Of a stretch of 21,061 bases of DNA, positions 17,742 to 21,061 are shown piece after piece; the first letter of the stretch is position 1; each line of letters opens with the position of its first letter. Source of the stretch: a virus; the IMG/VR virus record IMGVR_UViG_3300021375_000203, positions 1 through 21,061 of that record. The stretch is one strand, 5' to 3'. A program made the position numbers and the translations under genes. The notes under the pieces were generated by a model. The model had not been told where the DNA came from. It ran no database searches and saw nothing but the letters and a program-made list of their open reading frames with translations.

Positions 17742-17936
17742 ATGGACGCAATATTAAATTTAGTAAGTGGAGCACCTGCTTGGGTTTCTGCTGTAACAGC
17801 TTTAGTAACGGCTGCAACAGCAATCACAGCCTTAACACCTACAAAAACAGACGATAAAGCAATCTCTTTTATATTACGCATATTGAACTTAGTAGCTGGT
17901 AATATAGGTAAGAATACAAATAAAGACGACAAATAA
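17742..17936 (+). CDS. Holin-like small membrane protein
   Basis: This 64-residue protein has AGGAGA about 7 bases before the ATG. It contains a hydrophobic Ala/Thr/Val-rich helix ('[21 protein letters not shown]', residues about 11-32) and a second, more amphipathic hydrophobic stretch ('[17 protein letters not shown]'), ending in a charged tail (K-N-T-N-K-D-D-K). Two short hydrophobic helices and a charged C-terminus fit a small holin, which would form the inner-membrane lesions that release the cytoplasmic lysozyme encoded at 19687-20151. The spanin pair follows directly (TAATG overlap). The XhlA-like protein upstream may be its partner. Confidence 0.55.
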
Positions 17937-18142
17937 TGGGTTGGCTTTCTGCGTTAGGACCTATTGCTAAACTTGCTTCTAAAGTTTTTGGCTTTATGCT
18001 AATGCGGAAAGCAGTCCAAGCTGATGTAATGAAAGAACAACTAGATGATATTAGGGTCGCTGATGAAGTTAAGAAAAAAAATAATGCTATTTCTGCTTCT
18101 GCTAAGCGTAGCAAGTTGCGGAAGTATAGGAAGCGGAAATAA
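17936..18142 (+). CDS. Probable inner-membrane spanin subunit (Rz-like)
   Basis: This 68-residue protein starts by TAATG overlap with the holin-like gene. The N-terminus 'WLSALGPIAKLASKVFGFMLM' can be a short membrane anchor. It is followed by a charged helix ('RKAVQADVMKEQLDDIRVADEVKKKNNAISASAK') and a very basic end (K-L-R-K-Y-R-K-R-K). The last roughly 27 codons overlap, in another frame, a lipoprotein gene, which is the classic Rz/Rz1 layout. I-spanins join with outer-membrane lipoproteins to fuse the two membranes at the end of lysis. The protein is short for an i-spanin and the membrane segment is weak, so the call rests mostly on the nested lipoprotein. Confidence 0.5.
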   Translation: MGWLSALGPIAKLASKVFGFMLMRKAVQADVMKEQLDDIRVADEVKKKNNAISASAKRSKLRKYRKRK

Positions 18143-18263
18143 AGGGTATTGCATAATATCCAGTCCTATTAATCCTACTGATGCAGATATAGACGTTATA
18201 TCTGACGAACTCGTTGACGATTTATTAATACATAATGAAATATACGAAAGATTGTGTTTATGA
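18063..18263 (+). CDS. Outer-membrane spanin lipoprotein (Rz1-like)
   Basis: The reading frame opens at ATG 18045, but the ATG at 18063 is preferred. It gives a textbook lipoprotein signal: basic n-region (KLRKK), hydrophobic core (IMLFLLLLS) and lipobox V-A-S-C with Cys19. The mature part is about 48 residues and contains 'YCIISSPINPTDADIDVIS' and 'LLIHNEIYERLC'. The 'C....PI..(T/S)..D...(S)......I..HN......C' pattern is familiar in phage o-spanins. About 80 bases overlap the preceding gene in the +1 frame, as in Rz/Rz1. It would be lipidated, sorted to the outer membrane and complex with the inner-membrane subunit to complete lysis. It implies a Gram-negative host. The stop overlaps the next start (ATGA). 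Confidence 0.72.
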   Translation: MKLRKKIMLFLLLLSVASCGSIGSGNKGYCIISSPINPTDADIDVISDELVDDLLIHNEIYERLCL

Positions 18264-18865
18264 CGGAAGAAGAAAAAAAAATGTTATTGGCACAACAATT
18301 AAAAAATAGTGTAAATGTTGCTACTAATAAAGAAATAGAAGAAGAATTTTCTCCAAATGATTTTAGATGGGGAGAAACAAAGTTTGATAGAAACGAGCCT
18401 GAAAACTATGGTGATACAGTTAAAAATAAACCTAAAGTCTACATTAATAAAAAGAAATTTGCAGAAGAATTAGGACAAGAAGAATTAACAAAAGAACAAA
18501 TGAATAAGTATGTATTAGGGGAATCATTACATAATTTAAAAGATGTAGACCCAGAAAGATATAACAGATTATATAGAAGTGCTATGGGTAGTCCTAAATA
18601 TAGACAATGGCTTAAAGATTCTTATGATTATACTATAAATAATCCTACTGAAGATTATAGAGAAACTAGACCTATTGACCAATGGCATAAAGAGTCAAGG
18701 TTTGACCAAATATTAGGTGGGTATATAGATGCTGGTGATCCTGATTACCCTACATTAAAAAATTGGAGTAGAGATTTACCTTTTGGTTCTCCGCAACCTA
18801 TAACTGGAAGAAATAGATTTAGGGAAGAACTAGATGATTTAGTTAGGGCTTTAAGGAGAAAATAA
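18260..18865 (+). CDS. Conserved phage protein of unknown function
   Basis: The ATG at 18260 overlaps the o-spanin stop (ATGA) and is chosen over an in-frame GTG at 18254. The 201-residue product is acidic at its N-terminus ('MTEEEKKMLLAQQLKNS', 'KEIEEEFSPNDFRWGE'). A central helical part holds 'YVLGESLHNLKDVDPERYNRLYRSAMGSPKYRQWLKDSYDY', and the C-terminal part has 'RPIDQWHKESRFDQILGGYIDAGDPDYPTLKNW'. The 'GE(S/A)LH.LK..DP..Y..L' and 'W...SRFDQ..GGY' motifs look like a conserved family in marine phages, but I cannot name a function. The GESLH His/Glu pair is weakly reminiscent of metal sites, without a full HExxH. It has no signal or membrane segment. Position between spanin and nuclease suggests a late accessory or virion protein. 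Confidence 0.6.
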   Translation: MTEEEKKMLLAQQLKNSVNVATNKEIEEEFSPNDFRWGETKFDRNEPENYGDTVKNKPKVYINKKKFAEELGQEELTKEQMNKYVLGESLHNLKDVDPERYNRLYRSAMGSPKYRQWLKDSYDYTINNPTEDYRETRPIDQWHKESRFDQILGGYIDAGDPDYPTLKNWSRDLPFGSPQPITGRNRFREELDDLVRALRRK

Positions 18866-19224
18866 TGTATGAGTATAAAGCAAAATTAGTTAGAGTAATA
18901 GATGGAGATACTATAGATGTTGACATTGATCTCGGCTTTAAAGTGTTCTTGCAGAAAGAACGAGTGCGATTATTTGGCATTAACACGCCTGAAAGCCGAA
19001 CAAGAAACTTGGAAGAAAAAAAGTTGGGTTTGGCTGCGAAGGCTAGGCTTAAAGAGTTGTTGCCAAAGACTTTTATTGTAAGAACAGAGAAAGATGATAA
19101 AGGCAAATTTGGTAGAATACTAGGTATTCCTCTTGTAGAAGGTAGGAATATATGCGATCAATTAGTTGAAGAAGGACATGCCAGAAGTTATTTTGGTTTT
19201 GGACCTAAAGAAGTATGGGTATAA
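18865..19224 (+). CDS. Staphylococcal-nuclease-like (thermonuclease) endonuclease
   Basis: This 119-residue protein is a compact SNase-fold nuclease, which cuts DNA and RNA in a calcium-dependent way. Residues 13-16 are 'DGDT' (calcium ligand Asp15). Residues 33-44 are 'RVRLFGINTPES', giving Arg35 and Glu43 as the catalytic pair. 'GKFGRILG' gives Arg84 as the second catalytic arginine. Asn40 stands where the well-known staphylococcal enzyme has a calcium-binding Asp; this Asn is common in bacterial and phage members. There is no signal peptide, so it should act in the host cytoplasm, perhaps degrading host DNA late in infection. It is joined to its upstream neighbour by TAATG and lies within the lysis block. 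Confidence 0.88.
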   Translation: MYEYKAKLVRVIDGDTIDVDIDLGFKVFLQKERVRLFGINTPESRTRNLEEKKLGLAAKARLKELLPKTFIVRTEKDDKGKFGRILGIPLVEGRNICDQLVEEGHARSYFGFGPKEVWV

Positions 19225-19442: not shown

Positions 19443-19697
19443 ATGAATCAACCTATTAGAAGTTTAGGTGCAATATATAAACCTATGATGAACACATCTG
19501 CAACGAACCCCTCTATGCAAACATCTTCAGCACCTAATGAACAACAAATGTTAGCACAAGCACTTAGAGGTAGTAGAGGTATGCCACAACAACAATTTTC
19601 AGAAGAAGAAAAAATGATGATAATGCAACTTATGCAACAAGGCATGACGCAAGAGCAAGCTATGCAAGAATTAATGAGAATGAAAAGTGTTGGATAA
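19443..19697 (+). CDS. Gln/Met-rich small protein, function unknown
   Basis: This 84-residue protein has AAAGGAA about 7 bases upstream of the ATG. The N-terminal half is polar and probably disordered (Ser/Asn/Pro/Thr). The C-terminal half ('FSEEEKMMIMQLMQQGMTQEQAMQELMRM') forms two short helices around a 'QGMT(Q)EQA' turn, reminiscent of UBA-like or TerS-like helix pairs. Thirteen Met and many Gln residues are unusual. The end overlaps the lysozyme start by 11 bases. I do not recognise the family. Confidence 0.55.
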   Translation: MNQPIRSLGAIYKPMMNTSATNPSMQTSSAPNEQQMLAQALRGSRGMPQQQFSEEEKMMIMQLMQQGMTQEQAMQELMRMKSVG

Positions 19698-20151
19698 ACA
19701 AAAACTAATAAATTTAATATCTGACCATGAAGGTGTTAAACTTAAAGTTTATGATGATTATACAGGCAAAGAATTAAAAGCTGGAGATGTTTTAGTAGGA
19801 CACCCTACAATAGGTATTGGTAGGAATGTTGCTAAAGATGGATTAGGAATATCACAAGAAGAAGCAGAATTTATGCTTATGAATGATATAGATAGAGTCA
19901 AAGAAGAAATCAAGAACTTCCCCATAGAACATTTAAATGAAGTGAGAACAGCTATAATTATAGACATGGCATTTAATATGGGTATTACACGATTTAATCC
20001 TGCTATATGGAAAAAAACTTTCCAAGCTATTGTTAATGAAGATTGGCAAAAAGCCACTACGGAAATGCTCGATAGTAATTGGGCTCGACAAACAAAAAGA
20101 CGTAGTGCAAGATTATCACAAATGATGTTATTAGGAAAATGGATTGACTAA
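19687..20151 (+). CDS. Endolysin: GH24 (T4-type) lysozyme
   Basis: This 154-residue muramidase would cleave the N-acetylmuramic acid-N-acetylglucosamine bond of peptidoglycan. 'LISDHEGVKLKVYDD' gives the catalytic Glu15, with Asp24 nine residues later as in T4 lysozyme (Glu11/Asp20). 'VGHPTIGIGRN' gives the conserved Thr41, after an insertion of about 11 residues common in a phage subgroup. The C-terminal helical lobe ('DMAFNMGITRFNPAIWKKTFQAI', 'DSNWARQTKRRSARLSQMM') is typical, with the 'W..Q...R..r...m' end. No signal peptide or SAR anchor is present, so release needs a holin. The start is non-ATG, GTG at 19687 or TTG at 19690, overlapping the preceding gene. Length is typical. Confidence 0.9.
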   Translation: MLDKQKLINLISDHEGVKLKVYDDYTGKELKAGDVLVGHPTIGIGRNVAKDGLGISQEEAEFMLMNDIDRVKEEIKNFPIEHLNEVRTAIIIDMAFNMGITRFNPAIWKKTFQAIVNEDWQKATTEMLDSNWARQTKRRSARLSQMMLLGKWID

Positions 20152-20714
20152 TGGAAGCAAAGTTATGGGCAATATTAATTGTTGTTTTTTTCTTGTCTAT
20201 GCTTTCATGGTGTAGTATAGCAAAAGCACAAAGTAATACTGTTTCAAGCACTAGCTCGACAGTAAGTGGTACAACTACAGTAGATAGAACTCCGTCTACA
20301 GCGTCTGCCCCTAGCGTTGTCATCAATAATCAAGATGTCTGTAGTTTTGCTGCTACTGGAGCAATTCAAACACAAATATTTGGTTTAGCAGGTGGTACAG
20401 CTATTAGAGATATGAATTGTGAACGTATGAAATTATCTACTAGATTGTTTAGAATGGGTATGAAAGTTGGTGCTGTGGCTATGTTGTGCCAAGACCCAAG
20501 AGTGTTTCAAGCAATGGAAATGGCAGGTACACCTTGCCCATTTATGGGAAAAATAGGTCTTGAAGCAGCAGAAGCATGGGCTGAAAACCCAGAGAAAAGA
20601 CCTGACTATGAGCAATGGAAAAAAGATAATGTTGTAGATAAGGAGATAATAACAGATGAAGAAGCTACTGGTCTTGGTATTGGTGGTTTGTTGTTCTTGC
20701 TCTTACTCCTTTAA
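20151..20714 (+). CDS. Exported Cys-containing protein with C-terminal hydrophobic tail
   Basis: This 187-residue protein starts by TAATG overlap with the lysozyme gene. It has an N-terminal signal peptide (hydrophobic 'WAILIVVFFLSMLSW', likely cleavage after Ala26 in 'IAKA-Q'). A Ser/Thr-rich linker (residues 27-55) leads to a domain with four cysteines (64, 90, 113, 129), including 'LCQDPRVFQAMEMAGTPCP', which could form disulfides in the periplasm. The last 13 residues (GIGGLLFLLLLL region) are a hydrophobic tail with no charged end and are read from DNA that also encodes the next protein's signal peptide. I recognise the 'VINNQDVC' start and the 'CQD.RV..AM..AGTPCP' core as a pattern of marine phage proteins but know no function. 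Confidence 0.65.
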   Translation: MEAKLWAILIVVFFLSMLSWCSIAKAQSNTVSSTSSTVSGTTTVDRTPSTASAPSVVINNQDVCSFAATGAIQTQIFGLAGGTAIRDMNCERMKLSTRLFRMGMKVGAVAMLCQDPRVFQAMEMAGTPCPFMGKIGLEAAEAWAENPEKRPDYEQWKKDNVVDKEIITDEEATGLGIGGLLFLLLLL

Positions 20715-21061
20715 TTCATGGAGTCAAATGCAAGATGAAGGAACTACAACTACAACTGTAATAGAAGAACAAGGTGATGTACAAGAAATTACAGAAACTA
20801 CTGTTACTATTGAAAATAAAACAACTGGTGATATATTAGATGGTGATACAGGTGTCGTAGCAACGAGATACGAAGGGGATATGGATCAAGATTGGGGTGG
20901 GATTGGTTCAGCTAGTATGGTTACTTGTCCTTCTCAAGTAGGAGGAACAGGTAAATGTGCTAAAGGAACTTCTAGTACATTAACTACTTTTCAACAAAAC
21001 ATAAATATAGCACAATTTCATATAGAAGATGGTGGTGCTTTAAACTGGAGCTTAGATGCTT
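20656..21061 (+). CDS. Exported protein, 3' end outside the window
   Basis: The frame starts at ATG 20656, with AAGGAG at 20639-20644, and stays open to the window end (135 codons seen). Its first 59 bases overlap the previous gene in another frame. The N-terminus is a signal peptide: Lys2-Lys3, then 'LLVLVLVVCCSC', with possible SPase I cleavage near 'SWS-Q'. The Cys residues at 12, 13 and 15 do not make a good lipobox. The mature part is acidic and Thr-rich ('EGTTTTTVIEEQG', 'EITETTVTIENKTTGDILDGDTG'). It continues as 'YEGDMDQDWGGIGSASMVTCPSQVGG', with a second Cys in 'GKCAKG', and a beta-rich part 'STLTTFQQNINIAQFHIEDGGALNWSL'. It is likely secreted or surface located. The family is not recognised. 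Confidence 0.7.
   Translation, partial: MKKLLVLVLVVCCSCSYSFNSWSQMQDEGTTTTTVIEEQGDVQEITETTVTIENKTTGDILDGDTGVVATRYEGDMDQDWGGIGSASMVTCPSQVGGTGKCAKGTSSTLTTFQQNINIAQFHIEDGGALNWSLDA

Follow-up and report, generated by a model that had tools for sequence, protein, structure and literature searches.

A three-gene phage cassette with a dual-coded membrane-targeting overlap and a putative glycan-binding role at the host envelope

Two overlapping genes at the end of the virus record IMGVR_UViG_3300021375_000203 were found to be the first members of a three-gene cassette, here called P1, P2 and P3; the hosts of the phages that carry it include some of the sea's most abundant bacteria. The window analyzed is the whole 21,061-base record (own-genome search). 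The three products may form an envelope-exported, glycan-binding complex, a reading that we place just short of an even chance; that it would serve, at a late stage, to block re-adsorption or superinfection is a step that we hold with less confidence. The architecture is much safer than the function: the anatomy of the cassette is well supported, and it is the function that we infer. Pfam and PHROGs searches gave no function for P1, P2 or P3, in agreement with the initial annotation as regards the first two. A literature search found no paper on the cassette, and existing annotations of its members go no further than hypothetical or carbohydrate-binding protein.

The overlapping genes and their neighbors

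P1 occupies positions 20151-20714 on the plus strand and encodes 187 amino acids, comprising a predicted signal peptide (SIAKA/Q), a Ser/Thr-rich spacer, a helical domain with four cysteines and a hydrophobic tail at residues 176-187; its C-terminal sequence is GIGGLLFLLLLL. P2, on the same strand, begins with an ATG at 20656 and is cut by the window end at 21061, so that only its signal peptide and the first part of a beta-sandwich domain are present. As the initial annotation had proposed, the same bases, 20656-20714 (plus strand), serve both genes: these 59 nt encode the C-terminal 19 residues and stop of P1 and, in the +1 frame relative to P1, the signal peptide of P2. A Shine-Dalgarno-like AAGGAG for P2 lies within P1 at 20640-20645 (plus strand), 10 nt before the P2 ATG, and similar signals precede many P2 starts in relatives that have the overlap. 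In the closest relative (L001) both visible proteins are 100% identical to those of the window; there the complete P2 has 508 amino acids (L001:4843-6369) and is followed by P3, starting at L001:6362.

Directly upstream on the plus strand is a phage lysozyme (endolysin) gene (19687-20151; PF00959, E=3e-11); its stop and the start of P1 share 1 nt. The window also encodes a spanin-like lipoprotein (18063-18263) with an SVASC lipobox and a match to phrog_1275 (E=9.5e-14), and an overlapping basic-tailed spanin partner (17936-18142) with a weak phrog_1026 match. A small membrane protein adjoining this pair (17742-17936) may be a holin, and an SNase-like nuclease (18865-19224; phrog_452, E=6e-36; PF00565) is encoded after the spanin pair and ahead of the lysozyme gene. 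Other products of the window include a major capsid protein (phrog_9953) and a tail-fibre-like protein (PF24299, DUF7483).

The initial annotation likened the nested layout of P1 and P2 to that of spanins, but the resemblance is superficial. Spanins consist of an inner-membrane protein and an outer-membrane lipoprotein, or of both in one chain (PMC6139136). The strict spanin lipobox is [LVI][ASTVI][GAS]C; with the slightly looser pattern [LVI][ASTVIG][GAS]C that was used for counting, only 10 of 135 P1 and 3 of 135 P2 proteins showed a lipobox-like sequence in their N-terminal region. This rarity, the separate Rz/Rz1-like pair of the window at 17936-18263, and the distance between cassette and endolysin in complete genomes (given below) rule out P1 and P2 as a spanin pair.

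The overlap in relatives and selection on both frames

The P1/P2 overlap is common, not obligatory. Of the 311 loci with both genes, 219 share 45 nt or more, in every case with P2 in the +1 frame; 73 loci have no overlap, 16 have 1-4 nt and three have 5-44 nt (for L155 and L142 the overlap is uncertain, since the start or identity of P2 is doubtful). A hydrophobic C-terminal segment was found on P1 in 203 of the 311 loci. Every one of these has the long overlap; the 92 loci whose overlap is short or missing all lack the segment. Sixteen loci, most of them in the group L324-L334, combine a long overlap with a polar P1 tail, which indicates that hydrophobicity of the tail is not forced by the overlap. 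In phage HTVC115P, the likely P2 start ATG gives a 77-nt overlap with gp54; the deposited GTG start of gp53, which is P2 in this phage, removes the signal peptide (region L139:8368-8485), and the likely upstream ATG restores a full one.

On a tree of the P1 core (76 dereplicated rows), which rests on few columns and is unsure in its details, the hydrophobic tail is found mainly in one clade, with a small second group (L154, L157 and L163), and five changes in total. Within the tail clade, L136 and L252 look like joint losses of tail and overlap; the third exception, L033, has a truncated P1 with a core identical to that of L025 and is a probable sequencing error. P1 is tail-less in 31 of the 76 rows, 22 without and nine with a long overlap.

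Selection was examined by counting changes along the edges of minimum spanning trees. In the overlap, omega is about 0.46 for the P1 frame and about 0.69 for the P2 frame. For comparison, segments coding for P1 only have an omega of 0.09-0.14 in the P1 frame and 1.1-4.4 in the unused +1 frame; those coding for P2 only have 0.17-0.19 in the P2 frame and 2.9-5.4 in the unused frame. The overlap is enriched in changes that leave the product of the other frame unaltered (p=0.0003 for P1-silent among P2-changing, p=0.047 for the reverse), although the spanning-tree edges are not fully independent and these p-values are therefore indicative. Purifying selection thus acts on both frames, as the initial annotation had anticipated for a genuine dual-coded segment, and the constraint on the P1 tail is at least equal to that on the P2 signal peptide.

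These results bear on the simpler explanation that the hydrophobic tail is a passive by-product of reading through the P2 signal peptide, and that the cassette works without it. The many tail-less rows agree with this explanation, as does the readiness with which random signal-peptide DNA gives a hydrophobic +1 frame. When signal peptides were shuffled, the +1 frame met a stop in 58%, and the frames that stayed open had a mean peak hydropathy of 2.36 +/- 0.60, against 2.97 observed. A hydrophobic alternative frame is thus partly automatic, and the evidence for the tail lies in its conservation rather than in hydrophobicity itself. That conservation argues against a passive tail: omega of the P1 frame is far from the 1.1-5.4 of non-coding frames, and position 2 of the P1 codons is the least variable position in the overlap (11 of 118 changes). 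The polar tails of L324-L334 point the same way, and we regard the by-product explanation as improbable. The overlap is a clear natural example in which the signal-peptide DNA of one gene also encodes the membrane anchor of another protein, and its gains and losses can be followed.

The three proteins and the distribution of the cassette

The initial annotation noted signal peptides and cysteines in both proteins, and these features hold across the family. A signal-peptidase-I-type site is present in 40 of 45 aligned P1 members (AKA/Q in the window) and in 35 of 41 P2 members; the four core cysteines of P1 are 98-100% conserved across the aligned members, and P2 has one invariant cysteine. Both proteins look Sec-exported, and P1 would be a disulfide-bonded periplasmic domain. 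The AF model of P1 has a mean pLDDT of 69, rising to about 88 in the helical core, and shows the tail as a helix at residues 171-186. With this model of middling confidence, a fold search gave a single PDB chain at Z 2.3 and uncharacterised viral matches, so that P1 may yet have a known fold; PDB sequence profiles returned no match for it. Each of the 45 aligned members matches phrog_20531 (best E 2.8e-18), a family with no assigned function that includes JJJA_0025 of Achromobacter phage JWDelta.

P2 consists of a signal peptide, a beta-sandwich at residues 29-218 (AF pLDDT about 85), a disordered acidic linker and a helical C-terminal domain. The linker is 114-337 residues long, typically about 200, and 26% of it is Glu. 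Residues 29-218 of the AF model form a jelly-roll beta-sandwich of the carbohydrate-binding module fold, and in structural comparisons, a Foldseek search among them, they resembled carbohydrate-binding modules, with Z 12.0-12.2 to CBM16 and the sugar-binding F-box domain of Fbs1. At the sequence level, weak CBM_4_9 profile matches were found for P2 of HTVC202P and S28-C10, the best being 16.8 bits (S28-C10) against a Pfam cut-off of 25.9. No P2 reached this gathering threshold, and P2 of the window's clade gave no match. PDB sequence profiles gave P2 only weak matches, over the low-complexity linker. A match to phrog_214, annotated 'Rz-like spanin', was not significant (E=0.051) and was set aside. 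Because the N-terminal domain models as a carbohydrate-binding-module-type beta-sandwich, the initial annotation's guess of an adhesin-like product gains some support; the glycan-binding role is itself suggested by the predicted fold, and proteins of such a fold need not bind sugar.

The N-terminal domain of P2 varies far more than its surroundings. Among pairs with P1 at least 95% identical, the 5th-percentile identity is 0.41 for this domain, compared with 0.82 for the P2 C-terminal domain and 0.84 for P3. Identities as low as this amid near-identical cassettes indicate that the domain is exchanged as a module, and such swapping would be as expected for a specificity module. Co-variation of the domain with the neighboring DUF7483 tail-fibre-like protein was not seen in the few loci available, several of which have truncated fibres. 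For example, L018, L019 and L015 have identical P2 N-terminal domains and fibre C-termini that are about 45% identical. Since the domain does not track the fibre, a model in which P2 masks the receptor of that fibre is weakened.

P3 has a single N-terminal hydrophobic (TM) segment followed by a coiled coil, and ends in NPL, which is invariant in the alignment. One to four basic residues precede the hydrophobic segment and the sequence after it is mostly more acidic, a pattern that is only mildly positive-inside; the coiled coil would lie in the periplasm. One P3 member matches the Rz-like phrog_7686 at 5.9e-6, and it should be noted that coiled coils match loosely. Cys-rich peptides of 40 residues follow P3 directly in some relatives (L063:3496-3618, L110:4838-4960), and a similar short Cys-rich ORF lies ahead of P1 in L103.

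The three genes are tightly linked. Where a P1 locus contained all of P2 and 1500 or more further bases downstream, an NPL-ending P3 was found in 232 of 235 cases. Searches starting from P2 of two distant families found P1 upstream in 71 of 72 cases and P3 downstream in 59 of 60; the sole P2 locus without a separate P3 is L379, which is the contig L130 again. On this single contig (L130:995-2986) the P2 C-terminal domain is lost and P2 is joined in frame to P3. The fusion hints at contact between P2 and P3, and may be natural or an assembly fault. The initial annotation's proposal of an obligate pair therefore has to be amended: the genes are kept together and in order, but they are three, and the overlap falls below 45 nt or is absent in 92 of the 311 loci. 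It had named one gene occurring alone, or loss of the overlap in most relatives, as evidence against the pair; within the P1/P2 family neither holds.

The triad is present in the isolates HTVC115P (gp54-53-49), HTVC202P (gp24-26), HTVC023P, Baldr and the T4-like Mosig, and also in Votkovvirus S28-C10; the phages that carry it span SAR11 podophages, one Votkovvirus and one T4-like pelagiphage. Podophages and a T4-like phage keep the genes in the same order, which probably reflects a useful role at the host envelope. In CRP-810, P1 and P3 flank a seemingly unrelated gene, and in JWDelta a P1-like domain occurs alone. P1 contigs in bacterial and archaeal genome bins of many phyla (L145-L171) are probably mis-binned phage contigs.

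The position of the cassette is mostly among late genes and otherwise varies. In 54 loci of the window's clade the lysozyme gene and P1 overlap (-1 or -4 nt); elsewhere its upstream neighbors are tail-fibre-like or DnaD-like genes, or it stands ahead of the terminase, as in S28-C10, Baldr and HTVC202P, where it lies just before the large terminase gene. In the complete genomes of HTVC202P (gp24-26 versus gp53) and HTVC115P (gp54-49 versus gp20/22), roughly 20-25 kb lie between it and the endolysin. With such varied neighbors and distances, the cassette evidently moves as one block, independently of the lysis genes. A few genes past the cassette, HTVC115P gp46 (L139:13294-13743) is annotated as a toxin-activating lysine-acyltransferase.

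Possible roles at the envelope

In the arrangement that we propose, P3 would sit in the inner membrane with its coiled coil, which ends in NPL, in the periplasm. P1 would be periplasmic and disulfide-bonded, and in the window's clade its C-terminal tail would also hold it in the inner membrane, because the P1 frame there runs on into the DNA of the P2 signal peptide; both readings of the overlap are now kept by selection. P2 would be secreted, its helical C-terminal domain probably docking to P3 or P1 and its linker letting the glycan-binding-type beta-sandwich reach sugars of the wall, the outer membrane or the surface. In this way the complex would, at a late stage of infection, bring a glycan-binding module to sugars of the envelope or surface. 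That the cassette encodes a three-protein glycan-binding tether, anchored in the inner membrane, unrelated to spanins, widespread among phages of SAR11 and other marine phages, and with an anchor gained by overprinting the signal peptide of a partner, is a proposal we hold with limited confidence. We are similarly reserved about the proposal that the module serves to block re-adsorption or superinfection late in infection. Exchange of the sugar-type domain favors a variable ligand and, with it, this role. On the other side, lytic phages usually have their genes for superinfection exclusion among the early genes, and the cassette lies mostly among late genes. The failure of the P1 fold search and the mild charge bias of P3 also count against the proposed arrangement.

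An accessory lysis role is nearly as likely as the blocking of re-adsorption or superinfection, and would still be rather unlikely. Here P3 would act like an inner-membrane spanin, and P1 and P2 would bridge to the peptidoglycan or outer membrane and aid rupture after the endolysin has acted. T7 spanin genes sit just before the large terminase gene, the position of the cassette in S28-C10, Baldr and HTVC202P, and the overlap of P1 with the lysozyme gene in the window's clade is a second link to lysis. The layout of P3 is also spanin-like, including its one Rz-like match. The window, however, already has a spanin pair, most P1 and P2 proteins lack a lipobox, and in other genomes the cassette is found far from the endolysin or beside DnaD-like and tail genes; in addition, a lysis device has no obvious need for an exchanged sugar-binding-type domain. 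That P2 is instead a receptor-binding protein of the virion seems very improbable. Mizuno et al. 2014 (PMC3909814) propose a receptor-binding role for carbohydrate-binding proteins in marine phage metaviromic islands, and P2 of S28-C10 is annotated as carbohydrate-binding. Swapping of the P2 N-terminal domain between close relatives, and the frequent position of the cassette after tail genes, would suit such a protein. This role is disfavored because P1 and P2 start with signal peptides that have signal-peptidase-I-type sites, and P3 and many P1 proteins look membrane-bound; tailed virions are assembled in the cytoplasm. A virion role for P2 also leaves P1 and P3 without one, and the N-terminal domain does not follow the tail-fibre-like protein. 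If the cassette blocks re-adsorption or aids lysis, it would affect competition among SAR11 phages and the bursting of their host cells.

Comparison with known systems shows partial likenesses to our proposed tether. Two-component spanins (lambda Rz/Rz1, P2 LysB/LysC) are likewise small envelope proteins of late genes with +1 overlapping frames, and P3 may correspond to their coiled-coil partner in the inner membrane. The cassette differs in having three proteins, mostly without an outer-membrane lipoprotein, and a sugar-binding-type domain with a long disordered linker; moreover, its long overlap joins the two signal-peptide proteins, P1 and P2, and not the TM protein P3 and a lipoprotein. 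P1 resembles the unimolecular spanin T1 gp11 in its N-terminal export signal and C-terminal hydrophobic segment, but it has a signal-peptidase-I-type site, mostly lacks a lipobox, and is without the tail in many lineages. P2 shares the beta-sandwich fold and a hypervariable or exchanged domain with CBM4/9, CBM16 and CBM22 and with the marine-phage 'carbohydrate binding' genes (PMC3909814), although P2 of the window's clade lacks sequence-level membership in these modules. P2 also differs from those genes in being exported, tethered and part of a three-gene cassette, an arrangement that the relevant passages of PMC3909814 do not describe. With TonB-type periplasm-spanning proteins the cassette shares a possible inner-membrane-linked system with a long charge-rich linker, but the folded domain of P2 is N-terminal, its linker is acidic, and Pfam finds no TonB C-terminal domain in it. 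In a distant relative, MW202481, the gene downstream is annotated as TonB.
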